64,000 nt of DNA from Deltaproteobacteria bacterium (GTDB lineage Bacteria; Desulfobacterota; DSM-4660; Desulfatiglandales; HGW-15), in contig JAFGPH010000433.1 in NCBI GenBank assembly GCA_016926135.1, positions 3,555-67,554 on the forward strand, given 5' to 3'. Made by a program: the position numbers and the translations under genes. Below are positions 26,199 to 59,705 of this stretch, piece after piece; positions within the stretch are counted from its first letter, which is position 1; each line of letters starts with the position of its first letter. Below the pieces are notes generated by a model. That model ran no database searches. It saw nothing but the letters and a program-made list of their open reading frames with translations, and was not told the DNA's origin.

Positions 26199-26468
26199 CC
26201 ATATTTCTCTGAGAATTGGAGGATCGCTCGCACTCAACTGATATCACTCACATTCCCGCGGGCGCCGGTCTTTTCACCAAGAAACAACCTGGAGTCCAAG
26301 CTCAGGCAGCCCTGGAGGCAGGGTATGGCAGGGACCTTGGCCGGAGCCATCGGCAGCGATTCAACAACACCCTCCTGCTCACCATTTTTTATTGGAGCGC
26401 TAATGATTCGCAAACACTCGCAGGTCAATGTGACTGTCAAATCCCTGCAGAAAAAGGGGACCAGAGCG

Positions 26469-27269
26469 ATGAAGCGACAGACCACCATAAAGGCTGCCCT
26501 TTTGCTTGGCGTCACATGGCTGTGCCTCCATCTTGGGGCCGACGCGGGCCGCGCCTTCACCTTTGTGACCTACGCTGATCCTTCATACGTGAGCATGGCG
26601 CGGGTGCAGTTAGGGATCGAATCAACGCTCGATTACAACAATGCGCCCTTTGCCGATGCCTACGCGGCATCGGGGGGTTCATGGGGCCGCAGTCGGCGGG
26701 GCTCGGGTTACGCAATCTCCAACGGTTACCAGGTTGACCAGGATGGCACGAGATACTCCCGTGTTCTCTTTTCCCAGGATGGCCTCACGCAAGGGTATCT
26801 CGCCGGTTCTCCGGGCTTCCTGTACGCCCAGGCATCCTCTCTGGCAGACTACACCCTCATGCTCATCGGCGGCCAGGGTGCGGCGCAGGTGAATCTTGCT
26901 GTTTCTACCGGCAGCAACTACCTCATCGACCAAATCCATTCCATCAAGATCTATGATGGAATCGTGGATGGAGACGGAAACCTTCTGCCGGAGGCGCTGT
27001 GGCGCGATATTTTTTCCTGGGATGACGGAAACACACCCTCCGGGGTTCTGAGCCTGGCTTTTAACAGCCCGTTTCTTGTGCGCACGGAGTCAGGGGTCAA
27101 CGTAGCCCGCACATCTCTCGGGAGTGTCGATTACCAGTCCACCTTGAACTTCACCATCGACGTTGCAGAGACGCTTGTGCCGGTTCCCCTTCCATCGACA
27201 CTTGTTCTCATGTTTTTTGCCATGGGTGCTGGTCTTTGGGGCAGAAACTGGGCCATACGGACCCGGTGA
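26469..27269 (+). CDS. VPxP/PEP-CTERM-like secreted protein
   Basis: 266 residues from ATG 26469, with AAGGGG about 12 bases upstream; ATG 26403 is an alternative. Signal peptide about 1-30 (ALLLGVTWLCLHLGADAGRA). The body is beta-rich and resembles other surface CTERM proteins without a catalytic motif. The C-terminus has the sorting tag VPVPLPSTLVLMFFAMGAGL followed by WGRNWAIRTR, i.e. motif, hydrophobic segment and basic end. It is the second probable substrate in this window for the exosortase at 53649-55202. A U-rich run (CTCTTTTTGCAC) follows the stop, but I see no strong terminator stem. Confidence 0.75.
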   Translation: MKRQTTIKAALLLGVTWLCLHLGADAGRAFTFVTYADPSYVSMARVQLGIESTLDYNNAPFADAYAASGGSWGRSRRGSGYAISNGYQVDQDGTRYSRVLFSQDGLTQGYLAGSPGFLYAQASSLADYTLMLIGGQGAAQVNLAVSTGSNYLIDQIHSIKIYDGIVDGDGNLLPEALWRDIFSWDDGNTPSGVLSLAFNSPFLVRTESGVNVARTSLGSVDYQSTLNFTIDVAETLVPVPLPSTLVLMFFAMGAGLWGRNWAIRTR

Positions 27270-46442: not shown

Positions 46443-47154
46443 GGAGGTGCTTGGTTCCCAGCACTCCACCACATGGCGTTACTCCCGTGAGGACAGGCAC
46501 TTAGCCGACGCGAGTACCAACCTTCCTTGGCCGATTGTCAGCAATTTGTTCATGGCATGCCGAACATCCACAGAATAGTACGGGATGGCAACAGAGGGTC
46601 GCTGACCTGAGCGGGCGGCACGCCGGGGGATGCTCACGGTCTGGTCTAAAAGCAAGTCATGCACACAGGTCAAGTCATGTCCACAAATGGACTGCTTTCG
46701 CCGCGGTTTGTGAAGGGGGCCAATGCGCGGCCATACTGCTGGGGATTCACGCCTCTGGTGGTGCCCAATCGCCTTTCTGCCCGCCATGGCCGTCGCTGCA
46801 TTTGGCAGGCCGGTCGTAAACGGCCACCATGTGTTGTCGCGCATATTGCGCTGGCACCGCGCCATATTTAACGATCTGAGGCCTGGAATGACATGTCCAG
46901 TATGCCGTTTTGAATCTTCGGAGTTGCAAGTGTCGCAATTGCGGCTGACAGATGTCGTGCGGCAACCTATTCGCTTACTGCTCCACATAGGTGACTATGT
47001 GGCCCTGCGTTTGTCCCCCAAACACCCACGCTGGTACTACGCGCTGTACCAGAGGGATTGAGGATGCGTTGTCCTGAATGACTTGAGCGGTTGAAGGGGG
47101 AATACCTAACGCACCGACTGAAAGCATGGAGGCCCACTTTCCGGAGTGATGACA
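46443..47154. other. Intergenic region without a supported gene
   Basis: About 700 bases. Several short frames exist on both strands (the longest 169 codons on the - strand, 112 on the + strand), but none shows a recognisable fold. A possible zinc-ribbon relic is split between two frames near 46890-46945 (MTCPVC, then RSCKCRNCG in a shifted frame), which could be a decayed small gene. I make no firm call. Confidence 0.4.
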
Positions 47155-48543
47155 ATGCGTGTAATACGTTCACAGCACCCTAAGAGACCTCTTCTGCTTC
47201 ATATAGTTACAGTGCCGGAAACGCTGAACAGTTTCTTTGGCGGGCAGATTCCGTATATGAAGCAGCACTTTTCTGAAGTGGCAGCGATCACTTCTCCGGG
47301 TCCGGGGGTTGAAGTGGTCTCGAATCGCGACGGCATCACCATCTACGAGGTCCCCATGCTCCGCAAACTGTCACCCGTTGCAGACATTTTTGCATTTCTG
47401 CGCCTGGTGCGGATCATCCGGAGGCTGAAACCCGTCATTGTACATGCACATACACCCAAGGCCGGCTTTCTGGGGATTGCTGCCGCATCCTTTTGCAGAG
47501 TTCCTGTCCGGGTTTTCACTCTCCACGGCCTTCGCTCCTCCGGCGGAAACGATGCGATAAAAAAACTCCTGGTTGCAGAATCGGAACGGTTCACTTGCCG
47601 GTTCAGTCAAAGGGTTTTCGTGGTCAGCCATAGCCTTCTGAAGGAAGCATCTGAACAGGGTTTGTGCTGCAAAGACAAGATGAAGGTTCTCGTCAACGGC
47701 ACCTGCAACGGAATCGATGCGAAGGGCACGTTCAATCCGGACAACTATCCATCGGATACGAGAGCAACTATCCGCCAAAAGAATCATATTCCCCTCAACG
47801 CCATTGTCCTGGGTTTTGTGGGTCGAATTGTCCGAGACAAAGGAATTGGAGAACTCATCGCAGCCTGGCAGAAGCTGCGGGATGAATTCCCCGATCTCTA
47901 TCTGTTGGTTGTGGGAGACCACGAAACGGAAGACAGAGTGGATGATCAGCTAGTCCGAGTGCTTGAACAGGACAGTAGAATCAGAAGAATCGGTTTCGTT
48001 TACAGTGTGGCGGTGTACTATCTAGGGATGGATATCGTGGTGCTTCCCACATACCGGGAAGGATTTCCATATGTTCCACTCGAAAGCGGGGCGATGGGTT
48101 TACCCATAGTAGCCTCACGGGTTTGCGGCTGTGTAGACGCCATTGAGGACGAGCGGACGGGGCTTCTGGTTCCGCCAAGAGACATTGCGAGGCTATACGC
48201 AGCGATCAAAAGGTTGATAGTCGATGAACCATTTCGTAGAGGATTAGGGCAGGCAGGAAGACAACGCGTTCTGGAAAATTTTGCTCAGGAGCGCTTATGG
48301 GAAGCACTTTTGGAGGAGTACGTCAACCTTATTCACAAAAGCCGTTCTTCCTCAAAATGGAGACCGAGCACAAAGGCCAAGAATCATTACGGGGAGCTAT
48401 CCCCAGTCGGTGATGACCAGGCAGGCCACGCTCTGGGATATTCTCATGTTCAAAACAACCTACCCCAACAAGGTTTTCGACTACATGGCGGCAGCCCGCC
48501 CGACCATCCTGGCCATCGACGGGGTGATCCGCCAGGTCGTTGA
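47155..48543 (+). CDS. GT4-family glycosyltransferase with a replaced C-terminus
   Basis: 462 residues from ATG 47155, which has GGAG 8 bases upstream. The body is a complete GT4 enzyme (LLHIVTVPETLNSFFGGQIP; PVIVHAHTPKAGFLGIAAAS; VLGFVGRIVRDKGIGELIAA; LPTYREGFPYVPLESGAMGL; VDAIEDERTGLLVPPRD), up to about EYVNLIHKSRSSSKW. The last 60 residues (from about 48358) are unlike the family. They read through the start of an unrelated glycosyltransferase tail in the wrong frame. It is therefore a chimera made at the right edge of the imported cassette. The enzyme core is intact and probably active. Confidence 0.85.
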   Translation: MRVIRSQHPKRPLLLHIVTVPETLNSFFGGQIPYMKQHFSEVAAITSPGPGVEVVSNRDGITIYEVPMLRKLSPVADIFAFLRLVRIIRRLKPVIVHAHTPKAGFLGIAAASFCRVPVRVFTLHGLRSSGGNDAIKKLLVAESERFTCRFSQRVFVVSHSLLKEASEQGLCCKDKMKVLVNGTCNGIDAKGTFNPDNYPSDTRATIRQKNHIPLNAIVLGFVGRIVRDKGIGELIAAWQKLRDEFPDLYLLVVGDHETEDRVDDQLVRVLEQDSRIRRIGFVYSVAVYYLGMDIVVLPTYREGFPYVPLESGAMGLPIVASRVCGCVDAIEDERTGLLVPPRDIARLYAAIKRLIVDEPFRRGLGQAGRQRVLENFAQERLWEALLEEYVNLIHKSRSSSKWRPSTKAKNHYGELSPVGDDQAGHALGYSHVQNNLPQQGFRLHGGSPPDHPGHRRGDPPGR

Positions 48544-48796
48544 GAAGGCGGGCGGCAGGATCTTTGTGCCTCCGGGAAATGCCCAGGCCCTTGCCGATGC
48601 AGTCCTCACCCTGGAAAGGGACAGGGAACGGGCCAAGGCCATGGGGGAGGCGGAAAGGGATTTTTTGGTGAAGCACTTCGACCGCGAGAAACAGGCGATG
48701 GAGTTCGTGGCGCTTCTGACGGCATTGGCCGAACCGAGAAAAGCTTTTCACCGCGGATCAGAACCCAAAGAGCGACAGGCTGCTAGAAAGCTGTAA
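48395..48796 (+). pseudogene. C-terminal remnant of a second glycosyltransferase
   Basis: In the frame two bases off the preceding gene, from about 48430, the sequence reads DILMFKTTYPNKVFDYMAA, then RPTILAIDGVIRQVVEKAG, GRIFVPPGNAQALADAVLTL and a final HFDREKQAMEF. This is the donor-domain end of a WbuB-like GT4 enzyme. All upstream parts are missing, so it is a truncated relic. Its composition matches the high-GC genes to its right, so it belonged to the older locus. Confidence 0.8.
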
Positions 48797-48950: not shown

Positions 48951-50033
48951 ATGAAAATCCTTCACATCGTCGGGGCGAGGCCCAACTTCATGAAGGCGGC
49001 GCCCGTCATGAGGGCGATCGCCGGAAAGGACTCGGCGGTGCAGATCCTTGTCCACACGGGACAGCACTATGACAGCAACATGTCCGAGGTTTTCTTCAAG
49101 CAGTTGGGCCTGCCCGAGCCGGACAGGGACCTCGATGTGGGCTCAAATTCTCATGCCGTCCAGACCGCCCAGATCATGATGCGCATGGAGGAGGTCTTGC
49201 TCCAGGAGAAGCCGGACCTGGTCCTCGTTTACGGAGACGTGAACTCCACCATGGCAGGAGCCGTGGTCTGTGCCAAGCTCATGATCCCGGTGGGCCACGT
49301 GGAGGCAGGTCTCCGCTCCTTTGATCGGACCATGCCGGAAGAGATCAACCGGTTGATCACTGACCAAATCTCGGACCTGCTCTTCACCCCTTCCGAGGAC
49401 GGGAACGTCAACCTCCTTTACGAAGGGGTAGCCGGGGAAAGGATCCACCTGGTGGGCAACGTGATGATCGACACGCTGATTGGGCTGCTGCCCGCTGCCC
49501 TAGACTTGTGGAAAAGTATCTCGCGAGACATGCAGATCCTGAAGAAGGACTACGCCCTGGTCACGCTTCACAGGCCCTCGAACGTGGACGATCCTTCCGT
49601 GCTGAGCCGAATCATAGCGGTGCTTCAGGAGTTGAGCATGGAGGTGCCTGTCATCTTCCCGGTCCACCCGCGCACGAGAAGACACCTTTCACCGGCCGGA
49701 TTCCCGGCTGCGAGCAAGGGACTGAGTCTGGTCGACCCTCTGGGGTATCTCGAATTCCTGAGCCTTCAGGCAAACGCATCGGCGGTGATCACGGATTCAG
49801 GGGGTATTCAGGAGGAAACCACCTTCCTGGGAGTTCCCTGCCTGACGGTTCGTGAAAACACGGAGCGGCCGGTGACCGTGGACATGGGAACTAACACGTT
49901 GGTGGGTCGAGACATGGATCGGCTCAAGAAGGAGATCGAGAACATACTCGACGGCCATGGGAAGGGGGGACGGGTTCCGCCACTTTGGGACGGCAGGGCG
50001 GCGGAGAGGATCGCAGACATCGTGACAAAATGA
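48951..50033 (+). CDS. wecB: UDP-N-acetylglucosamine 2-epimerase (non-hydrolysing)
   Basis: 360 residues of normal length. It interconverts UDP-GlcNAc and UDP-ManNAc. Signature motifs in order: KILHIVGARPNFMKAAPVMR, ILVHTGQHYDSNMSEVFF, LVLVYGDVNSTMAGAVV, HVEAGLRSFDRTMPEEINR (catalytic Asp/Glu), ALVTLHRPSNVDD, and ITDSGGIQEETTFLGVPCLT for nucleotide binding. It supplies ManNAc for the polymer. It lies at the high-GC side of the cassette boundary. Confidence 0.95.
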   Translation: MKILHIVGARPNFMKAAPVMRAIAGKDSAVQILVHTGQHYDSNMSEVFFKQLGLPEPDRDLDVGSNSHAVQTAQIMMRMEEVLLQEKPDLVLVYGDVNSTMAGAVVCAKLMIPVGHVEAGLRSFDRTMPEEINRLITDQISDLLFTPSEDGNVNLLYEGVAGERIHLVGNVMIDTLIGLLPAALDLWKSISRDMQILKKDYALVTLHRPSNVDDPSVLSRIIAVLQELSMEVPVIFPVHPRTRRHLSPAGFPAASKGLSLVDPLGYLEFLSLQANASAVITDSGGIQEETTFLGVPCLTVRENTERPVTVDMGTNTLVGRDMDRLKKEIENILDGHGKGGRVPPLWDGRAAERIADIVTK

Positions 50034-50185: not shown

Positions 50186-50809
50186 ATGAAAAGGCTCTTT
50201 GATCTGCTGCTTGTGGTGGCGTCGTTGATCATGGTTCTGCCGTTTCTTGGTGTCCTGGCACTGCTTGTCCGGATATCCATGGGAAGCCCTGTCCTTTTCG
50301 TCCAAACCAGGCCGGGATTTCATGGGAGGCCGTTCAGGATCTACAAGTTCCGGACAATGAGAAATGCCGCGGACGCAGCCGGGAAATCCCTTCCGGATGC
50401 CGAGAGGCTGACCAGGCTGGGCCGGTTTCTGCGCGCCACCTCTCTTGATGAATTGCCAGAGCTCTTCAACGTGCTCAAAGGCGACATGAGCTTGGTGGGC
50501 CCCAGGCCGCTTCTCATGCGGTACGTTGACCGGTACACCGCGGAGCAGGCGCGTAGGAACGAGGTGAAGCCGGGGCTGACGGGGTATGCCCAGGTGAACG
50601 GACGCAATGCGATTACCTGGGAAGAGAAGTTCAAGCTGGATGTGTGGTACGTGGACAACCGGAACCTGTGGCTGGACCTCAAGATCATCGCCATGACCGT
50701 GCTGAAGGTGTTGAAAAGGGAAGGGATCAGCGGGGGGGGGGAGGCGACCATGTCCGAATTCAATCCTCAGATTACGCAGATTGACGCAGAGAGGGCAGAA
50801 GGTGTTTAG
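50186..50809 (+). CDS. PglC-like initiating sugar-1-phosphate transferase
   Basis: 207 residues, the short monotopic form. One N-terminal membrane re-entrant helix (about 3-28, LFDLLLVVASLIMVLPFLGV) is followed by the bacterial sugar transferase core: FVQTRPGFHGRPFRIYKFRT, SLDELPELFNVLKGDMSLVG and GPRPLLMRYVDRYTAEQAR. The core has the catalytic Asp-Glu pair (LDELPE) and Pro-rich GPRP motif. It should load a UDP-sugar phosphate onto undecaprenyl phosphate. With PglD, PglE and PglF-like genes next door, the sugar is probably di-N-acetylbacillosamine. The last 15 residues (NPQITQIDAERAEGV) are encoded by a GATTACGCAGATTGACGCAG repeat word and are not part of the family. Confidence 0.92.
   Translation: MKRLFDLLLVVASLIMVLPFLGVLALLVRISMGSPVLFVQTRPGFHGRPFRIYKFRTMRNAADAAGKSLPDAERLTRLGRFLRATSLDELPELFNVLKGDMSLVGPRPLLMRYVDRYTAEQARRNEVKPGLTGYAQVNGRNAITWEEKFKLDVWYVDNRNLWLDLKIIAMTVLKVLKREGISGGGEATMSEFNPQITQIDAERAEGV
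50760..50800. repeat. Word repeat inside the 3' end of the sugar transferase gene
   Basis: TCAGATTACGCAGATTGACG followed by CAGAGAGGGCAGAAGG has the same CGCAGA-based words as the spacers, but here it is translated as the C-terminal tail. Confidence 0.55.
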
Positions 50810-50824
50810 GGCAGGACAGGTGAA

Positions 50825-51514
50825 TTGAGACTCGAAGTCCCATTGAAGAGGATTGCCGTGGTCGGTGCCGGTGGGTTCGGACGGGAGGTGGCCTGGCTTA
50901 TCAGGGAAATCAATGAGCTTGAGAGTTCCGCGTGGGATATGGTCGGGTTCATCGACGAAGACTCTGCCCTGAGGAACAGGATAATCAACGGGCACCCCGT
51001 GCTCGGCGGTCTGGAAACCCTCGAAGGGATGCCCGGCATCAGCCTGGCCCTTGCATTGGGCAGCCCTTCCGACCGCATGGGGGTGGTGGACCGGATCTCG
51101 AAATGCGATGTGCGCTACCCCAACCTGATCCACCCCTCGGCGACCATTGGACAGGAAAACTCGCTGGGCTTCGGGAACATCTTGTGCGCAGGCGTCATCC
51201 TCACAGTGAACATACGGGTCGGGAACTTCTGCCATCTGAACCTGAAGACATCCTTGGGCCATGACTGCGTGCTTGAGGATTTCGCCACCACCGCGTGCGG
51301 GGTGGACTTTGCCGGCTTCAGTCACATAGGCCAGGGATGCTATTTCGGCAATCACGCCACGGTGCTTCCCTCTGTCCGGGTAGGTGCCTGGGCCGTCATC
51401 GGCGCCGGCGCGGTCGTGAATCGAGATGTGGAGGCGGGTTCGGTGTGCGTGGGCGTTCCTGCGAGACCCATCAAGATGAATTCAGCCCTTCGGAAGACCA
51501 AGAAGCAGGCATGA
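50825..51514 (+). CDS. PglD/NeuD-family sugar O/N-acyltransferase
   Basis: 229 residues from TTG 50825, 15 bases after the previous stop. The N-terminal Rossmann-like sugar-nucleotide domain starts KRIAVVGAGGFGREVAWLIR. The C-terminal left-handed beta-helix of hexapeptides (about 110-215) contains the catalytic His in LKTSLGHDCVLEDFATTACG and ends with VIGAGAVVNRDVEAGS and VGVPARPIK. In PglD this enzyme acetylates the 4-amino group of UDP-4-amino-4,6-dideoxy-GlcNAc with acetyl-CoA, giving UDP-diNAc-bacillosamine. The flanking genes support that reaction here. Confidence 0.93.
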   Translation: MRLEVPLKRIAVVGAGGFGREVAWLIREINELESSAWDMVGFIDEDSALRNRIINGHPVLGGLETLEGMPGISLALALGSPSDRMGVVDRISKCDVRYPNLIHPSATIGQENSLGFGNILCAGVILTVNIRVGNFCHLNLKTSLGHDCVLEDFATTACGVDFAGFSHIGQGCYFGNHATVLPSVRVGAWAVIGAGAVVNRDVEAGSVCVGVPARPIKMNSALRKTKKQA

Positions 51515-51524
51515 CAGCGTGACC

Positions 51525-53594
51525 ATGACTGCAATCCTCAGTAGGATCCTCCTTTTTGCCGCCCATAACAGCCTCGCAACCCGACTCAAGGGATGGGTGA
51601 AGGCCCACCGCTTCGGGCTCAACGTGGCGGCTCACGGTCTTCTCTTTGCACTCAGCTATGGCTTCAGCCTGATTATGCTGGAGGACTCTTTTCTGCCGGG
51701 GGAGGCATGGTCCCTTTTCGGGCGCACTCTCCCTTTCCTGGTCCCGATTCGGGTTGCCGTGTTCTGGTACCACGACCTCTACGAGGGGCTCTGGGTGTAC
51801 GTGAGCTTTGCGGACGCGGTCAACATCATCCGCGCCGCCGTCATCAGCACCCTGGCCTTTGCCCTCCCGGGAGTCTTTCTGGAGTCCTTGCGTGTTCCGG
51901 AGAAGCTCCTGATCCTGGACACGTTCTTCTGCATCATGACCGTTTACGGAGTCCGTCTGGTCGCTCGAACCCTTCATGAAGGCGTCCTTATCAAATCCGG
52001 GGCCTACCGGGGGCAGGAGATCCTGCTCATTGGTCCCTTGAACCGAGTCCAGACACTGGCCGGGGAAATGCTAAGCGATCCCCTAGCATATTACAAGCCG
52101 GCCGCCATCGTGGACATCTCTCAAGGGAAGAGGGGCCACCGCCAGCGCATCAGCGATTTACCGGTTCTCACCGTGGAAGAGTGCGTGTCCCGCAGGGATC
52201 GATTCGGCAAGGTGCGCCACATCGTCCTATGCTGGCCGAACGCCTCCGAGGGAGAGCTCGACCGACTGGTGGAAGACCTCAAACCGCTGGAGATCCCTTT
52301 CACCACCCTGCCCTACCTGGACGAACTCCTTCCCCCGGAAACCGAAGCCAAAGGGGAGTCTCCTACCGGTCTGAGGCAGGTCACAACGGATTCCGCCGCT
52401 TTCGCCCCGGCGGATCCCCCGAGGATAAGGAAGCGGGTCTTTCTCTCCCCTCCCCACATGAGCGGTCTGGAGCAGGAGTACGTTCGCCGCGCCTTCCGTA
52501 GCAATTTCATCGCCCCTCTCGGTCCCATGGTGGATGGCTTTGAAAAGGAATTCTCTGAAATGACCGGTATCCCCCATGCCGTGGCCCTGACTTCAGGCAC
52601 CGCAGCCATTCACCTGGTCTTGAAGACCCTTGGGATCGGCCCGGGGGATACTGTGATCGCCTCTACCCTGACTTTCATCGGCAGCGTGACGCCTATTCTC
52701 TTCCAGGGAGCGACGGCTATGCTCGTGGACTGCGACCGCAAGACCTGGACGATGGACATAGATCTGCTGACATCGACTTTGAGGGAATGCGCGGATTCAG
52801 GCCAGCCGCCCAAGGCGGTTCTTCCCACCGACCTCTACGGGCAATGCTCGGATTACGCTGCCCTCTCCAAGGTCTGCAAGACCTACGGCGTTCCCCTGAT
52901 CGTGGATGCGGCCGAGGCCATGGGCGCCACCTGTAACGGCGGACATGCAGGAAGCGGCGCCATGGCCGCCGTCTTCTCCTTCAACGGCAACAAGATCATC
53001 ACCACCTCCGGAGGCGGGATGCTTGCCTCTTGGGACAAGGCCCTCGTGGATCAGGCCCGTTTCCTCTCCCAACAGGCCCGTGACCCGTTCCCCCACTACG
53101 AGCACACCCGGATCGGCTACAACTATCGGATGAGCAACATCCTTGCCGCCATCGGCCTGGCCCAGTTGAAGGTGCTGGAAGACCGCGTTAGGAGAAAGCG
53201 GGAGATATTCGATCATTACCGCAGCAGGCTCGGAGACACGCCGGGAATCGAATTCATGCCCGAGGCTTCTTATGGCCGCTCCAACCGGTGGTTGACGGTG
53301 ATCCTCATCACGCCGGAGGCGTTCGGCGCGGACCGTGAAACGGTGAGGCTGGCCTTGGAGGCGGAGAACATCGAATCGAGGCCCGTCTGGAAACCCATGC
53401 ACATGCAACCCGTATTCAAGCTCAAAGCTCAAAGCTCAAAGCTCAAAGGAGGAGAGCGATACGAAGTCGAGGTGGTTGGCGGCGAGGTGTCGGAGGACCT
53501 TTTCAAGCGGGGGCTCTGCCTGCCCTCGGGTACCGCCATGACCCGGGAGGATCTCAACAGGGTTGTCGAGGTGATCCTGGGCTGCCGCAGGTGA
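51525..53594 (+). CDS. DegT/PglE-type aminotransferase fused to a membrane module
   Basis: 689 residues from ATG 51525 (GTG 51519 possible). Residues about 20-270 form a membrane module with several helices and a Rossmann-like part (EILLIGPLNRVQTLAGEML; HIVLCWPNASEGELDRLVEDL). It is paralogous to the N-terminus of the dehydratase at 55199-57217 (ILVVGPLNRVQPLVKDLMGD; AIVICWPEAGKKQLEKVVEDL). Residues about 298-689 are a DegT/DnrJ/EryC1/StrS aminotransferase: ALTSGTAAIHLVLKTLGI, DLYGQCSDYAALSKV, VDAAEAMGATCNG, and the PLP lysine K490 in FSFNGNKIITTSGGG. It should transfer an amino group to the 4-keto product of the dehydratase. Such a membrane-anchored aminotransferase is unusual. A CTCAAAG tandem repeat lies in its last third. 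Confidence 0.9.
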   Translation: MTAILSRILLFAAHNSLATRLKGWVKAHRFGLNVAAHGLLFALSYGFSLIMLEDSFLPGEAWSLFGRTLPFLVPIRVAVFWYHDLYEGLWVYVSFADAVNIIRAAVISTLAFALPGVFLESLRVPEKLLILDTFFCIMTVYGVRLVARTLHEGVLIKSGAYRGQEILLIGPLNRVQTLAGEMLSDPLAYYKPAAIVDISQGKRGHRQRISDLPVLTVEECVSRRDRFGKVRHIVLCWPNASEGELDRLVEDLKPLEIPFTTLPYLDELLPPETEAKGESPTGLRQVTTDSAAFAPADPPRIRKRVFLSPPHMSGLEQEYVRRAFRSNFIAPLGPMVDGFEKEFSEMTGIPHAVALTSGTAAIHLVLKTLGIGPGDTVIASTLTFIGSVTPILFQGATAMLVDCDRKTWTMDIDLLTSTLRECADSGQPPKAVLPTDLYGQCSDYAALSKVCKTYGVPLIVDAAEAMGATCNGGHAGSGAMAAVFSFNGNKIITTSGGGMLASWDKALVDQARFLSQQARDPFPHYEHTRIGYNYRMSNILAAIGLAQLKVLEDRVRRKREIFDHYRSRLGDTPGIEFMPEASYGRSNRWLTVILITPEAFGADRETVRLALEAENIESRPVWKPMHMQPVFKLKAQSSKLKGGERYEVEVVGGEVSEDLFKRGLCLPSGTAMTREDLNRVVEVILGCRR
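53421..53448 (+). repeat. Heptanucleotide tandem repeat (CTCAAAG x4) inside a gene
   Basis: CTCAAAG occurs four times without interruption at 53421-53448, in frame with the aminotransferase. It encodes the insertion KLKAQSSKLKG between family-conserved QPVF and VSEDLFKRGLCLPSG. A unit of seven bases shifts the frame when copies are gained or lost, so the gene could be phase-variable. Confidence 0.8.
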
Positions 53595-53648
53595 CCGCCC
53601 GGTTTTCGAATGCCACGGACTACTGACTTTTCAAATGATCAATGAAAA

Positions 53649-55202
53649 ATGATTGGTGCTAAATTGCATAAGGCTTCCCCCTGGTGGCTGCCAGCCCTGC
53701 TGGTAGCCGGATCCCTCACCTTTGCTTACTGGGACACCATTCAAGCCCTGGTAAACCAATGGTTCCATGATGACGATTACTCCCACGGCTTCCTGGTCGT
53801 GCCCATCGCCGTCTATCTTGCCTGGCAGAGGCGGTACCGGTTGAAGGGGATTGAGATCGGAACCGACTGGCGCGCCCTGCCCCTGCTGCTGTTTGCCGTA
53901 GCGGTTTTCGTCGTGGGTGAACTGGGCGCTGAGCTTTTCACCACTCGCGTGTCCATGCTCGTCTTCGTCATCGGGTTGACTTGGTTTCTCTTCGGCGCTT
54001 CGGTTGTCAAGAACCTTGCATTTCCCCTGGCCTTTCTCTTCCTCATGTTGCCCCTACCCGGTTTCATTTACCGCAACATCACGTTCCCCCTTCAGCTCAT
54101 CGCCTCCGTCGGTGCCGTGAACCTGCTCCAGACCCTGGGCATCACCGCCTTCAGGGAAGGCAATGTGATCGACGTGGGTTTCATGCAACTCCAGGTGGTG
54201 GAGGCATGCAGCGGGCTTCGCTACATCCTGCCCCTCCTGACCTTCGGGGTCCTGTTCGCCTACTTCGGCCAGAAGGTATTCTGGAAACGCCTGATCCTGG
54301 TGCTGGCGACCGTCCCTGCGGCCATTGTGGCCAACATCTCTCGAGTGGCCGGGACCGGCTGGATCGGCACCTATTGGGGCAGCGAGGCGGCGGAGGGTTT
54401 CTTCCATTCCTTTTCCGGCTGGGTCGTGTTCATGTTCTGCATCGCCCTATTCTCCAGTTTGAACCTGCTGCTGCGCCCTCTGCCGGGGAAAGGCCGGATG
54501 GAGAAGCCGCCGACGGCACCCCTGGCAAGCGTCGTGCCAACCGCGAGGGTGTCATGGCTTGCAGCGGTCATCGGCATGCTCGTGATCCTGGTCAGCCCCT
54601 CCGTCGTAAGCTCCCTCGGCAATGTGCCCCCTGTTCCTCTCACTCGCCCCTTGAACGCCTTTCCCTTGGACTTCCAGGGATGGGTCGGTCAACGTTCCGA
54701 GATAGATTCGAAGGTGTGGAATGCCGTGGGCGGTCAGGACTACGTGCTCATCGACTACCGAAAGGCAAACCGGGGCCTGATCAATTTCTATGTGGCCTAC
54801 TACGAATACCAGCGCAAGGCCGGCGACTTTGTCCACTCCCCCAGGCTCTGCCTGCCCGGCGCCGGATGGTTCATTGAGATGAATCATGTACGTATCCTGC
54901 GAGCACACACCGCTGTCAGGGGGCAGAGCGTGGATGTGCATCTCAATGAACTGGTGATCGAGAAGGGGGGGGCGCGTCAACTGGTCTATTTCTGGTATCA
55001 GGGCCGTGGGAGGAATTTCACCAGTGAGTTCGCCGCCAAATTCTACATGGTGTGGGACGGGATCTGGCGCCGCAGGACGGACGGGGCCCTGGTGCGGCTG
55101 GTCATGCCCCTCCATGGCGGCCTCACGCTGGTGGAAAGCCGTCGCATCCTGGACAGCTTCGCCATGGCTGCGCGCATTACCCTGGAGGACTATCTGCCTT
55201 GA
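53649..55202 (+). CDS. Exosortase fused to EpsI domain (XrtD-like)
   Basis: 517 residues. Residues about 10-280 are the exosortase, with 7-8 membrane helices. The catalytic residues are Cys187 in VVEACSGLRYILPL, Arg232 in VANISRVAG and His253 in FFHSFSGW. The C-terminal 220 residues are an EpsI domain with a CLPGAGW motif and VYFWYQGRGRNFTSE. Exosortases with fused EpsI and VPxP-type substrates fit the XrtD class. It should cleave the tags of the proteins encoded at 1556 and 26469. Its stop overlaps the TTG start of the dehydratase gene, so the sorting enzyme and glycan genes are translationally coupled. Confidence 0.93.
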   Translation: MIGAKLHKASPWWLPALLVAGSLTFAYWDTIQALVNQWFHDDDYSHGFLVVPIAVYLAWQRRYRLKGIEIGTDWRALPLLLFAVAVFVVGELGAELFTTRVSMLVFVIGLTWFLFGASVVKNLAFPLAFLFLMLPLPGFIYRNITFPLQLIASVGAVNLLQTLGITAFREGNVIDVGFMQLQVVEACSGLRYILPLLTFGVLFAYFGQKVFWKRLILVLATVPAAIVANISRVAGTGWIGTYWGSEAAEGFFHSFSGWVVFMFCIALFSSLNLLLRPLPGKGRMEKPPTAPLASVVPTARVSWLAAVIGMLVILVSPSVVSSLGNVPPVPLTRPLNAFPLDFQGWVGQRSEIDSKVWNAVGGQDYVLIDYRKANRGLINFYVAYYEYQRKAGDFVHSPRLCLPGAGWFIEMNHVRILRAHTAVRGQSVDVHLNELVIEKGGARQLVYFWYQGRGRNFTSEFAAKFYMVWDGIWRRRTDGALVRLVMPLHGGLTLVESRRILDSFAMAARITLEDYLP

Positions 55203-57217
55203 AGATCAATCCTACCACCTGGTTCTACCAGAGGCTCTTCCGCGCCCTGACCCACCCCATAGTGAAAGGGCTGTCGGAGAGGATTCTCCCCCATCGCCTC
55301 TGGATCATCCTGGGAGCGCATCTCTTCCTGTTCACCGTCAGTTATGCGGTCAGCATCAGGGTCCTGGACGAGGGACTGCCGCAGGGAGAGGCCCTTTTCT
55401 ACCGTACCCTTGCTCCCCTCGTTGTCCTGCGACTCGTCGCCTTCTGGTGGCACGACCTCTTCCAGGGGCTCTGGCGATACGTGAGTTTCCAGGACCTCCT
55501 GAACATCATCCGGGCGAGTTTTCTGAGCTCCATCGTATTCATCCTTGTGGGATTCCTGTGGGGCCCTCTCCGGGTCCCGGAGAGGCTGGCTCTGCTGGAT
55601 CTCACCTTCTGCATCTTCTTCACCGGCGGCATCCGCTTCGTGGTCAGGAACATCCGGGAGAACTTTCTCCAGGCCCACCCTGTGCAGTCGATCAAGAACA
55701 TCCTGGTGGTGGGGCCTCTGAACCGGGTCCAGCCTCTTGTAAAGGATCTCATGGGCGACCCGGACAGGCACTACATCCCTTACGCGGTGCTGGATCCTAC
55801 AAGACACGACCGGATCTTCCGGTCGCGAATCAACGACGTGCCCGTCCTCACCCCTCCCCAGCTCCTGGAGCAGCGGCCGACCCTCCGCAGCCTGGAGGCC
55901 ATCGTCATCTGCTGGCCCGAGGCCGGTAAGAAGCAACTTGAAAAGGTGGTGGAAGACCTCAAATCCCTTCAGGTTCCCTTCAAGATCATCCCCCAGGTGG
56001 AAGACATCCTCACCGACAAGGTGAGCATCAGCGATATCCGGAACGTGGAGATCGAAGACCTCCTGGAGCGAAAACCCGTCCGGATCGAGATGGAACGGAT
56101 CAGGGACTACCTGAAGGGCAAGACGATCATGGTGACCGGCGGAGGGGGCTCCATCGGATCGGAACTCTGCCGCCAGATCGCCCAGTTCCGGCCCAAGGGT
56201 CTGGTGGTGGTGGAGCGGTCCGAGAGCAGCCTGTATGACCTGAGGATGGAACTCTCAAAGGGCTTTCCTGAGCTTCCCCTCTTCGCCTCCATCTCCAGCA
56301 TCAATGACGCCGCCGGTATCCTTGCCCTTATGAAGCGTTTCGAGGTGGAAGTGGTCTTCCACGCCGCAGCCTACAAGCACGTACCCCTCATGGAGGTGGC
56401 GCCCGTGGAGTCCGCCTACAACAATGTGCTGGGAACGTACAACGTTGCGCAGGCCGCGGTGAAAGCCGGCGTGAGACGCTTCGTGATGATCTCCACCGAC
56501 AAGGCGGTCAACCCGGCCAACGTGATGGGGGTCACCAAGCGAATCGCCGAGATGGTGATCCAGGGTCTCCAGGGAGCAGGTGGGACCCGATTCATGGTGG
56601 TCCGTTTCGGCAACGTGCTGGGGAGCGCAGGCAGTGTGATCCCCATCTTCAAGAGACAGATCCAGGAGGGAGGACCGGTGACCGTCACCCACCCGGACAT
56701 CGAGCGCTATTTTATGACCATCCCGGAGGCCGTTCAACTCGTGCTCCAGGCAGGCTGCATGGGCAAGGGGGGTGAGATTTTCGTGCTGGACATGGGAAGC
56801 CCCATGAAGATCGTGACCCTGGCCGAAAGACTCATCACCCTCTCCGGGAAGCGTCCGCACAAAGACATTGAGATCCGGTTTACCGGACTGCGACCGGGGG
56901 AGAAGATGTTTGAAGAGCTCCTGAACCGGGGGGAGGAACACGCGGAAACCACCCACCCTCAGATCCTTGTGGCCCTGTCCGGTTCCGCGGAGAGGGCGTT
57001 CATGGAGAGACAGATCGCCGAGATCCGCCAACGGGTATTGGCCCATGATGAGAAAGGGCTGATGGAGAGACTTATGGACCTTGTGCCGGGGTATCCCTTT
57101 CAGGGCGATGAAACGGAGAGAGAGCTTGGGCCGGGCAGCCGCCTTTGCGCACGGGCGCTGGGAGGGACAAAGAGTTGGAGTGATGGAGTGATGGAGTACC
57201 GGAAACAAAGGGTTTAA
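55199..57217 (+). CDS. PglF/CapD-type UDP-GlcNAc 4,6-dehydratase with membrane module
   Basis: 672 residues from TTG 55199; a longer frame would overlap the exosortase by 150 bases. The N-terminal membrane module (about 25-290) is paralogous to that of the aminotransferase. The extended SDR domain starts IMVTGGGGSIGSELCRQIAQ (about residue 312) and has VFHAAAYKHVPLME, the catalytic STDKAVNPANVMGVTK region and FTGLRPGEKMFEELL. It converts UDP-GlcNAc to UDP-4-keto-6-deoxy sugar. Both module copies carry GPLNRVQ where the family usually has a Gly-rich nucleotide loop. The last 17 residues (GTKSWSDGVMEYRKQRV) come from a GGAGTGATGGAGTGATGGAG repeat and are probably not functional. Confidence 0.92.
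   Translation: MKINPTTWFYQRLFRALTHPIVKGLSERILPHRLWIILGAHLFLFTVSYAVSIRVLDEGLPQGEALFYRTLAPLVVLRLVAFWWHDLFQGLWRYVSFQDLLNIIRASFLSSIVFILVGFLWGPLRVPERLALLDLTFCIFFTGGIRFVVRNIRENFLQAHPVQSIKNILVVGPLNRVQPLVKDLMGDPDRHYIPYAVLDPTRHDRIFRSRINDVPVLTPPQLLEQRPTLRSLEAIVICWPEAGKKQLEKVVEDLKSLQVPFKIIPQVEDILTDKVSISDIRNVEIEDLLERKPVRIEMERIRDYLKGKTIMVTGGGGSIGSELCRQIAQFRPKGLVVVERSESSLYDLRMELSKGFPELPLFASISSINDAAGILALMKRFEVEVVFHAAAYKHVPLMEVAPVESAYNNVLGTYNVAQAAVKAGVRRFVMISTDKAVNPANVMGVTKRIAEMVIQGLQGAGGTRFMVVRFGNVLGSAGSVIPIFKRQIQEGGPVTVTHPDIERYFMTIPEAVQLVLQAGCMGKGGEIFVLDMGSPMKIVTLAERLITLSGKRPHKDIEIRFTGLRPGEKMFEELLNRGEEHAETTHPQILVALSGSAERAFMERQIAEIRQRVLAHDEKGLMERLMDLVPGYPFQGDETERELGPGSRLCARALGGTKSWSDGVMEYRKQRV
57172..57196. 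repeat. GGAGTGAT word repeat inside the 3' end of the dehydratase gene
   Basis: TTGGAGTGATGGAGTGATGG followed by AGTAC is a tandem 8-base word that is translated as part of the C-terminal tail. It resembles the spacer word families, so the stop codon may have been lost to it. Confidence 0.6.
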
Positions 57218-57302: not shown

Positions 57303-59705
57303 ATGAGGATTTTCGGAAGAATCTTGCTTCTCACTGCGGTTGTGGCTGCCGCGTCCCTTCTGTGGGCATGCGGGAGTCCCGAGCAGAAGAAGATGAAGTT
57401 CTATAACCGGGGTAAGGATCTCTTCGATCAGGGAGAGATCAAGAAGGCGCGGCTGGAATTCAAGAACGCCCTTCAGATCGACCCCAAGTTCGCCAGGGCC
57501 TACCACATGCTCGGGCAGGTGGAGTTCAAGGAAAGGAACTTCAAGAACGCATATGGGCTGTTCTCCAAGGCGGCCGAACTGGACCCGGACCTGCTGGATG
57601 CGCAAACGGCCCTTGGCAGCTTGTTCATGGCGGCGGGGGAGAGGGAGAAAGCCAGGGAAAAGGCCGATCTCGTGCTCTCCAAAGAACCGGAGCACGAAGA
57701 CGCCCTTATCCTGATGGCGGCTCTCCTCATGGCCGAAGAGAGGGAGGCGGAGGCCGAGCAGTTCATTGCCAGGGTCACCCGGAAGAACCCTAAGAAGCCG
57801 GACCCCTACCTCATGCTGGCCGCCATGAGCCTCAAGAAGAAAGACACGGACGCTACCGCCCGGCACCTGAGGGACCTGCTGGCCCAGGACGAGAAGCACC
57901 AGCGGGCCCGGCTCATGCTGGCGGAGATCCTGGAGCGAAAGGGGGATGTGGAGGGGGCGGAGCGGGAGATTCAGGCCCTCATGGCCCAGGACCCGGAGAA
58001 AGAAGAGAGGAGGCTTCTCCTTGCAGGCCTCTATGAACGGGCCGGACGGAGCGGCGAGGCGGAGAAGGTCCTGAAGGATCTGATCGCCGGCCACCCGGAG
58101 AAAGACAACTACCGTCTGGCCCTGGCCCGGTATCATGGCGGAAAGAAGAATTTCGAGGCCATGAAGTCGGTGCTGGAGCAGGCTATCAAGGACCTGCCCG
58201 AGAAGTACGGTCCTTACGAGATGCTGGCAAGGCAGTATCTGGCCGAGAAGGAGAGCTCCCGTGCCCTGGGGTTGCTGGATCAGTTCATGGGCAAGATCGG
58301 CGCCGGACCGGACTACCTCAGGGCCAAACTCTTCAAGGCGGCCGTGCTCTTCCAGGAGAGAAAGGCCGAAGAGGCCCTGATGCTGGTGGAGGAGATCCTC
58401 AAGGACAACCCCAAGGACGTGGGAGCGCATGCACTCAAAGGGGACATCCTGATGGCCATGCGTGACTTCCCGGGTGCGGTTGCGGAGTATCGGGCGGTTC
58501 ACAACGAAGAGCCGCAGAACATCGGCACTGCCCTGATGCTCGCCCGGGCTCATCTCATGAACAACGAACCCGGCCTCGCCGAAGAGGCCTACAAGAAGAT
58601 CCTCTCCCTGGACCCCAAGGTTCGGCAGGCGCGGTTCGGCCTGGCCGATATCTACAGGAGAAAGGGGAATGCGGAGCTCGCCCGGCAAGAGATCCGGAAG
58701 ATGATCGAGTCTGCCCCGGAAGACCGCGAAGCCCTGGCGGCCATGGTCGATCTGGCCCTTGCAGCCAAGGATCTGGAGGGGGCACGGCAGCATCTTCTCA
58801 AGCTCTCGTCCCTGGTTCCCGACTCCCCGGTGATTCCCTATCGCCTCGGCCTCTTGGACGTTGCGGAGAAGAAGGACCGGGAGGCGGTCTCCCGTCTGGA
58901 GAAGGCACTGGAGATCAACCCCGATTTTGCCCCTGCCTTGAATCAGATCCTGGGACTGCTGGCGAGAGACAAGAAGCTCGACCAGGCCATGGCGCGCTGC
59001 GAGGAACAGGTCAGCAAGCGACCGGAAAACAGCACCTACCGCGTCGCCCTGGGAAGGCTCTACGCCCTGAAGAAGGAAGACGACCAGGCCCGCAGGCAAT
59101 TCGAGAAGGCCCTTGAGATGAATCCCGACAGCGAGGAGGCATTGCTGGCCCTGGCCCAGTTGGAGCAGAGCCTGGGATCCTTGGACGCTGCCATCGAGAA
59201 GTACCGGAGGATCCGCGAGAAGAACCCCGGGAACCTCAACATCGGCATGCTCCTGGCCACCCTTCTGCACCAGAAGGGAGACATGAAGCAGGCCAAAACC
59301 ATCTACGAGGATATTCTCGAGCGAAGACCGGATTCGGCCGTGGCGGTCAACAACCTGGCCTACTACTACGCGGAACACGAGCCTACGAAGGAGAACCTGA
59401 CCAAGGCGGCCGGCATGATCGAGCCGCTCCTCGAAAAGCACAAGGACGTCCCTACCCTCATAGACACGGGCGCATGGATCTTCTATCGCCTTGGTGACTA
59501 CCAGAAGGCTCGGGACCTGCTCCTTTCGGTCAGGGACAAGGATCCGGACAACCCGATCCTGGACTACCATCTGGGCATGGCCTACCTGAGACTCGGGGAG
59601 AAAGGAAAGGCGAGGGATCACCTGCAGCGCTCCCTCCGTCAGGAGCGGGAATTCCCGGAGAAGAAGGCGGCCCGGGAGGCCCTCAGGACCCTGGACCTCG
59701 GATGA
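57303..59705 (+). CDS. prsT: TPR-repeat lipoprotein of the exosortase system (PrsT-like)
   Basis: 800 residues. ATG 57303 has GGAGG 8 bases upstream. The lipobox is LLWAC at about residue 23. The rest is a long array of tetratricopeptide repeats, easily seen as A-x3-Y/F, ALQIDPKFARAY, AAELDPDLLDAQ, ALEINPDFAPALNQILGL and ALEMNPDSEEALLAL units, about 20 in all. The family (PEP-CTERM system TPR lipoprotein) co-occurs with exosortases and EPS and probably scaffolds their machinery at the inner face of the outer membrane. Length is close to the usual 850-900. Confidence 0.9.
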   Translation: MRIFGRILLLTAVVAAASLLWACGSPEQKKMKFYNRGKDLFDQGEIKKARLEFKNALQIDPKFARAYHMLGQVEFKERNFKNAYGLFSKAAELDPDLLDAQTALGSLFMAAGEREKAREKADLVLSKEPEHEDALILMAALLMAEEREAEAEQFIARVTRKNPKKPDPYLMLAAMSLKKKDTDATARHLRDLLAQDEKHQRARLMLAEILERKGDVEGAEREIQALMAQDPEKEERRLLLAGLYERAGRSGEAEKVLKDLIAGHPEKDNYRLALARYHGGKKNFEAMKSVLEQAIKDLPEKYGPYEMLARQYLAEKESSRALGLLDQFMGKIGAGPDYLRAKLFKAAVLFQERKAEEALMLVEEILKDNPKDVGAHALKGDILMAMRDFPGAVAEYRAVHNEEPQNIGTALMLARAHLMNNEPGLAEEAYKKILSLDPKVRQARFGLADIYRRKGNAELARQEIRKMIESAPEDREALAAMVDLALAAKDLEGARQHLLKLSSLVPDSPVIPYRLGLLDVAEKKDREAVSRLEKALEINPDFAPALNQILGLLARDKKLDQAMARCEEQVSKRPENSTYRVALGRLYALKKEDDQARRQFEKALEMNPDSEEALLALAQLEQSLGSLDAAIEKYRRIREKNPGNLNIGMLLATLLHQKGDMKQAKTIYEDILERRPDSAVAVNNLAYYYAEHEPTKENLTKAAGMIEPLLEKHKDVPTLIDTGAWIFYRLGDYQKARDLLLSVRDKDPDNPILDYHLGMAYLRLGEKGKARDHLQRSLRQEREFPEKKAAREALRTLDLG

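Follow-up and report, generated by a model that had tools for sequence, protein, structure and literature searches.

A dehydratase-type membrane module on a PglE-like aminotransferase encoded beside a PglF-like dehydratase in a deltaproteobacterial gene cluster

UDP-N,N'-diacetylbacillosamine is reported to be made by PglF, PglE, and PglD, and in the exopolysaccharide operon of Bacillus subtilis the proteins EpsC, EpsN, and EpsM have been proposed as counterparts of PglF, PglE, and PglD, with EpsL as the transferase (PMC10653937). The same source describes the use of an active PglF from which 130 residues are missing (PMC10653937), which implies that catalysis does not require the whole N-terminal membrane module of this dehydratase. 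A sequence-only reading of the locus described here had supposed that, in known Pgl pathways, the module is confined to the dehydratase; the dehydratase is not its sole known bearer, given that large monotopic phosphoglycosyl transferases of the WbaP type also have it (PMC10942596). In WbaP and WcaJ (PF13727, TIGR03025), it comprises four helices and a Rossmann-like domain. The structural account of WbaP reports that uridine nucleotides stabilize the soluble part of the module, that UMP inhibits the enzyme, and that most contacts in the homodimer lie in the soluble domain of the module and are made almost entirely via a beta-hairpin; its authors suggest a common feedback on transferases and PglF-like dehydratases and regard the sharing of one module by transferases and dehydratases of unrelated function as puzzling (PMC10942596). 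Bifunctional monotopic phosphoglycosyl transferases likewise join a pathway enzyme to a membrane element, which in their case is the transferase itself (PMC10942596).

Here, we describe a third enzyme class with this module, an aminotransferase that appears to have taken it from its own pathway neighbor. The window is a 64,000-nucleotide stretch of contig JAFGPH010000433.1 (assembly GCA_016926135.1, Deltaproteobacteria bacterium), and we refer to its PglE-like aminotransferase as A and to its PglF-like dehydratase as D. Genes for WecB, the PglC-like transferase, NeuD/PglD, A, XrtD-EpsI, D, and a TPR protein follow one another on the plus strand (Table 1). The genes upstream of this cluster include those for an outer-membrane barrel, a chain-length type protein (GNVR), an AAA_31 ATPase, a Wzx-like flippase (Polysacc_synt), a Wzy_C protein, and glycosyltransferases. 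Pfam and NCBI models and solved structures agree with the earlier proposal of a bacillosamine-type enzyme set, with PglF-, PglE-, PglD-, and PglC-like genes in one cluster. The end of the acetyltransferase gene is separated by 4 bases from the GTG and by 10 from the ATG at which A could start. In the three loci of L001 to L009 for which the TPR relative is not counted, the contigs stop within or just past the dehydratase gene.

Table 1. Features of the cluster in the window (aa, amino acids).
Feature	Positions	Strand	Evidence or remark
UDP-GlcNAc 2-epimerase WecB	48951..50033	+	TIGR00236, 332.1 bits (cutoff, 210.15)
Small PglC-like monotopic phosphoglycosyl transferase, 207 aa, without module	50186..50809	+	PF02397, E 5.6e-66; DELPE motif
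PglD/NeuD-type sugar acetyltransferase	50825..51514	+	TIGR03570, 192.2 bits (cutoff, 160.8)
A, N-terminal membrane module, residues 28-272	51600..52334	+	43% identity to D module; AF2 model; hydropathy
A, linker from module to aminotransferase	52335..52433	+	pLDDT < 50 at residues 265-301; no in-frame ATG/GTG/TTG
A, PglE-like DegT aminotransferase domain, motif SFNGNK	52434..53594	+	PF01041, E 8.5e-89; matches to 1o61 and 4ztc
Exosortase XrtD with C-terminal EpsI domain, between A and D	53649..55202	+	TIGR04152, 447.9 bits (cutoff, 400)
D, N-terminal membrane module, residues 30-271	55286..56011	+	A-D alignment; predicted model
D, PglF-like UDP-GlcNAc 4,6-dehydratase domain	56105..57217	+	PF02719, E 1.8e-118; best match 5bju
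TPR protein	57303..59705	+	Relative 3' of dehydratase in 6/9 loci L001-L009

Elsewhere in the window, the proteins encoded at 1556-2434 and 26325-27269 have PEP-CTERM/VPLPA-like tails and are possible substrates of the exosortase XrtD; PF07589 scores 20.3 on the former, just below the cutoff of 20.7, and the latter has no Pfam match at 0.001. Among the glycosyltransferase genes, positions 46479-47145 hold no clear plus-strand gene, and the frame at 48281-48796, by eye the end of a glycosyltransferase, overlaps the gene at 47146-48543 in another frame and is possibly a decayed gene.

Residues 317 to 686 of A match the family DegT_DnrJ_EryC1 with 298.7 bits. Compared with solved structures, the enzyme domain finds 1o61 and then 4ztc by sequence, and 4ztc, the PglE of Campylobacter jejuni, by fold. 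A contains the motif SFNGNK, which we take to be the PLP-lysine motif. By its DegT fold, this motif, and PglE as the closest solved structure, A is predicted to be a PglE-type aminotransferase. It scores below the NCBI cutoffs for the LegC family (TIGR04181; 338 versus 420 bits) and for PseC (230.9 versus 423.5 bits), so these models do not fix its substrate, and the exact sugar, substrate, and product that we assign to A are putative. D has the features of the PglF type, namely, a Polysacc_synt_2 domain (residues 310 to 592), the motifs GGGGSIG and STDKA, and an N-terminal membrane module, and its best match by both sequence and fold is C. jejuni PglF (5bju). D is thus one of the PglF/CapD-type membrane UDP-GlcNAc 4,6-dehydratases; A has the same N-terminal module but bears an aminotransferase where these enzymes have the dehydratase domain. 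C. jejuni PglE, with the same catalytic domain as A, has no membrane module (the 4ztc chain has 386 aa), and B. subtilis EpsN, with a catalytic domain of the same kind, is a free-standing enzyme that is not known to carry one.

A occupies one open frame from 51519 (GTG) or 51525 (ATG) to 53594, and D occupies one from 55199 (TTG) to 57217, neither with an internal stop; the start codon of D is uncertain, its TTG overlapping the end of the exosortase gene. BLASTP aligns residues 30 to 271 of A with residues 32 to 271 of D (103/242 identities [43%], 154 positives, E 3e-62), and 57% of the aligned positions differ. The first 290 residues of the two proteins give a gapped local score of 520, far above that of 500 shuffles (mean, 34.5; standard deviation, 5.2; maximum, 56), whereas the catalytic parts score 38 against 200 shuffles with a mean of 35.7 and a maximum of 52 and thus show no similarity. 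The sequence-only reading had called the N-terminal 250 or so residues of A and D similar, and this is borne out: the motifs that it cited are all present in the translations, and no stop separates the module from the aminotransferase in A.

The AF2 model of A (mean pLDDT, 78.9; pTM, 0.56; 28 rows) has helices at residues 31-53, 62-84, 97-120, and 128-159, then a Rossmann-like domain and the aminotransferase fold, with a linker between the two domains that is predicted to be disordered. Short stretches of the aminotransferase domain also have pLDDT values below 50, and the PLP lysine lies in one such stretch (490-497). In the model of D (mean pLDDT, 80.1; pTM, 0.62; 14 rows), the same module elements occur in the same order at nearly the same residues. 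Four membrane helices and a Rossmann-like domain are therefore found in the predicted models of both proteins, in keeping with the membrane anchor that had been foreseen for the aminotransferase. By hydropathy, the second helix of A is weak (1.25), while three module peaks pass 1.4; in the 13 full-length fusions described below, each of the four helix positions has a hydrophobic stretch (best 19-residue windows, 1.2 to 2.5), and the linkers, of 23 to 34 residues, are unalike by eye. PF13727 scores 18.8 bits on the module of A and 24.1 bits on that of D, both below the Pfam cutoff of 25, and residues 61 to 271 of A match the N-terminal part of TIGR03025 (E 1.6e-11). A sequence search of solved structures with the module profile found 3nkl at E 2.5e-4 and two more at E 0.4, and WbaP was not found by this search. 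The glycine-rich loop of the module reads GP in every one of the 33 modules of the A/D lineage and in none of the 54 others among 87 rows; 51 of those others have GAG, and the remaining three have GAD, GAS, and GTG. A and D both read GPLNRVQ in the loop, without GAG. Compared with WbaP/WcaJ, then, A has GP for GAG, lacks the transferase domain, and has no hairpin that we could see after the module.

That sequencing, assembly, or frame reading merged two genes could be read from the protein database entry for the window's own aminotransferase (P0019), which has 389 aa, no module, and an ATA codon at its beginning. However, in-frame ATG, GTG, and TTG codons are absent from A between codon 52332 and position 52458, the ATG of the conserved LSPPHM motif, so the aminotransferase is without the usual separate start. 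The same architecture is found in 12 full-length relatives, which come from several sources (one on a 239,962-base contig) and group together in trees, although some are near-copies of each other (P0008/P0009). Because these 12 read through as a single protein, we take the 389-aa gene call to be wrong, and we reject an artefactual fusion as scarcely credible.

These relatives were found in a search with the module region, in which 7,997 candidates were scored and which returned 15 proteins, including 10 full-length module-aminotransferase fusions, and in a profile search that added 2; with A there are 13, besides the partial fusions P0013 and P0018. PF13727 is in the database listing for 6 of the 10. 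Identity to A is 49 to 77% for the modules of the relatives and 69 to 86% for their enzyme parts. Any part of the module was present on 14 of the best 120 of 7,993 aminotransferase profile matches. The fusion is unusual, but it is not unique to the window. Most aminotransferase relatives among the matches listed have no module, so the anchor is not generally needed. A unites well-known parts in a new combination of domains, which conservation and trees support. We found no description of a module-aminotransferase fusion in the paper titles and abstract openings listed, which does not establish its absence from print, and a literature query for PF13727 with PF01041 had no match.

A 300-residue module query for a free-standing module protein gave P0010 only. 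Spread by viruses was considered and rejected, as none of the 63 stretches of viral contigs that matched the search pattern encodes a relative; the two plasmid records that matched are both annotated as epimerase/dehydratase. A pattern-based scan of genome contigs, which diverged copies can escape, gave 37 loci with a module relative and no module-aminotransferase fusion. Group searches covered 257, 395, 340, 291, 194, 8, and 29 genomes, which with 9 more make 1,523 genome scans; the sets overlap, and several are samples of larger groups. In 34 of the 34 loci from the group searches (L048 to L081, a count that does not include L047, a second match in G008), the frame that bears the module matches the dehydratase as well. 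The sets of 8 and 29 genomes had no match at the strict limit, without a positive control.

In a tree of 82 aminotransferase domains (which drew on P0020 and P0022 to P0079 within a length limit and covered part of the 120 listed proteins), the fusions fall into a single group (support, 100/99) among free-standing enzymes, adjoining P0027 (95/87). Inside this group is the truncated P0020, a fragment of 386 aa that lacks the LSPPHM start and comes from a contig of 1,247 bases. In a tree of 87 modules (84 different, given identical pairs; P0013 was too short and was left out), the modules of the fusions cluster with that of P0010 in a single clade (100/100), which joins 12 dehydratases of the window's operon type (100/100) on a long branch from all others. 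A joint clade of the fusions and the 12 dehydratase modules of this type is also found (100/99) in a 39-row module tree, the only one with P0016 and P0017, which were found after the larger tree. In the 39-row tree, P0010 again falls into one clade with the fusion modules (100/100), positions of the fusion modules inside and beside the dehydratase modules are not separated (p-AU 0.355), and the same is true of P0010 inside and beside the aminotransferase fusions (p-AU 0.439). Syntenic loci bear on the ancestral state: in 7 of the 7 with a readable aminotransferase gene (L002, L003, and L005 to L009), that gene, which is followed by exosortase and dehydratase genes, has no module. L001 and L004 hold no aminotransferase and are outside this count, the aminotransferase of L007 matches two overlapping frames, and in L002, L003, and L008 extra in-frame starts lie as far as 121 residues ahead of the motif, where the sequence has no module. 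Because the fusions are one group among free-standing enzymes and the genes of these seven loci lack the module, it most likely joined an already existing gene in a single event; because the fusion modules group with the operon-type dehydratases, the source would be that dehydratase or near kin, and the event would be old. To judge from these trees and loci, the enzyme of the next pathway step probably received its dehydratase-type anchor in a single, ancient copying event. Recent copying within the window's own lineage was also considered and is rejected, because in the 39-row tree A is nearer to the other fusions than to D.

Membrane co-localization of A is the best reading of these observations. 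We hold with moderate confidence that A is a membrane-anchored PglE, a free-standing enzyme onto which a dehydratase-type anchor was copied, and that amination takes place near D. In an ancestor, the four-helix-plus-Rossmann anchor of an operon-type dehydratase or close kin would have been copied before a free-standing aminotransferase, and the fusion would have been kept since then. The anchor would place A at the inner face of the cytoplasmic membrane, beside the PglC-like transferase and beside D, which has the same anchor; the UDP-4-keto sugar from D would be aminated by A close to its production site, PglD would acetylate it, and it would then be transferred to the lipid carrier for exopolysaccharide. 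The module of A and D would serve for anchoring rather than for the nucleotide sensing suggested for WbaP, and we read it in this way because GP replaces GAG in the glycine-rich loop. We infer from this replacement that nucleotide sensing may have been lost and anchoring retained in the A/D lineage.

A regulatory role, in which the module keeps a pocket for a nucleotide or nucleotide sugar and A and D respond jointly to by-products such as UMP, would fit the stabilization of the WbaP domain by uridine nucleotides and the common feedback suggested by the WbaP authors (PMC10942596). The uniform presence of GP in the 33 modules of the lineage weighs against it, with the need of the loop for binding presumed, and we consider such a role improbable. 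The module might instead be a harmless leftover of a rearrangement, with A working like any PglE and its location irrelevant. The low count of module-bearing proteins among the best aminotransferase matches is in line with such a leftover, as is the faster evolution of the module than of the enzyme; yet the 12 relatives, even where module identity is as low as 49%, retain the soluble part and the hydrophobic helix positions, and the G+C content by codon position of the module is like that of the enzyme part, which makes a passive fusion quite improbable to us.

A specific assembly goes further than co-localization: the modules of A and D would pair as in the WbaP homodimer, giving a two-enzyme complex with channeling of the 4-keto sugar. 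The common ancestry of the two modules, the consecutive pathway steps in one operon, and the location of most WbaP homodimer contacts in the soluble domain of the same module (PMC10942596) all speak for such pairing. On the other hand, the WbaP contacts are reported to come from the beta-hairpin (PMC10942596), for which we see no counterpart by eye after residue 272 of A, where a variable, low-confidence linker follows, and the two modules differ at more than half of their aligned positions. With so loose a linker and no hairpin in view, contact in the WbaP mode is disfavored, and a specific complex of A and D seems doubtful. Also rather doubtful is a broader conjecture, that the module is a general docking piece of pathways for polyprenol-linked glycans, whose copies from the dehydratase on the aminotransferase and on the acetyltransferase P0010 build a membrane relay, with successive UDP-bacillosamine enzymes placed next to the phosphoglycosyl transferase through like-with-like contacts. 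The membrane-anchored PglE that we favor would still have consequences for the module family, in that the changed nucleotide loop of the A/D lineage would separate anchoring from nucleotide sensing, and A and D offer a natural case for asking whether the module gathers consecutive enzymes at the membrane.

Additional combinations came to light in the searches. In Nitrospirota/Omnitrophota, Glycos_transf_4 (WecA-like) proteins bear the same module family at the C terminus, with GAG kept and a polytopic partner; there are six such loci (L019, L022, L025, L027, L029, and L030), five of which (all but L025) were checked with Pfam. P0010 (524 aa, on a 2,075-base contig) is a PglD acetyltransferase with the same module as A at its C terminus, that is, in the same PglD-module order as in the window with the reading frames joined differently; in the 39-row tree its module is beside those of the fusions P0011/P0017 (82/55, a weak value), and as one sequence only, it may be the product of a frameshift. 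Among the aminotransferase matches, P0021 (623 aa) combines a hexapeptide transferase with the aminotransferase, P0087 (829 aa) has two aminotransferase domains in tandem, and P0118 (566 aa) has a PIN domain before the aminotransferase. A frame of 1,034 residues (L016:8618-11719) has approximately 460 residues ahead of a module-dehydratase, and this front part, which has no listed Pfam match, may be untranslated, as the frame was read from stop to stop. Finally, the AF2 model of A matched two giant-virus proteins of approximately 570 residues in BFVD (A0A3G5AKE8 and A0A3G5AH14), which align beyond the aminotransferase domain of A with high rmsd (16.0 and 11.2, respectively); one of them is named after the PglD N-terminal domain, and they are perhaps soluble Rossmann-aminotransferase fusions.
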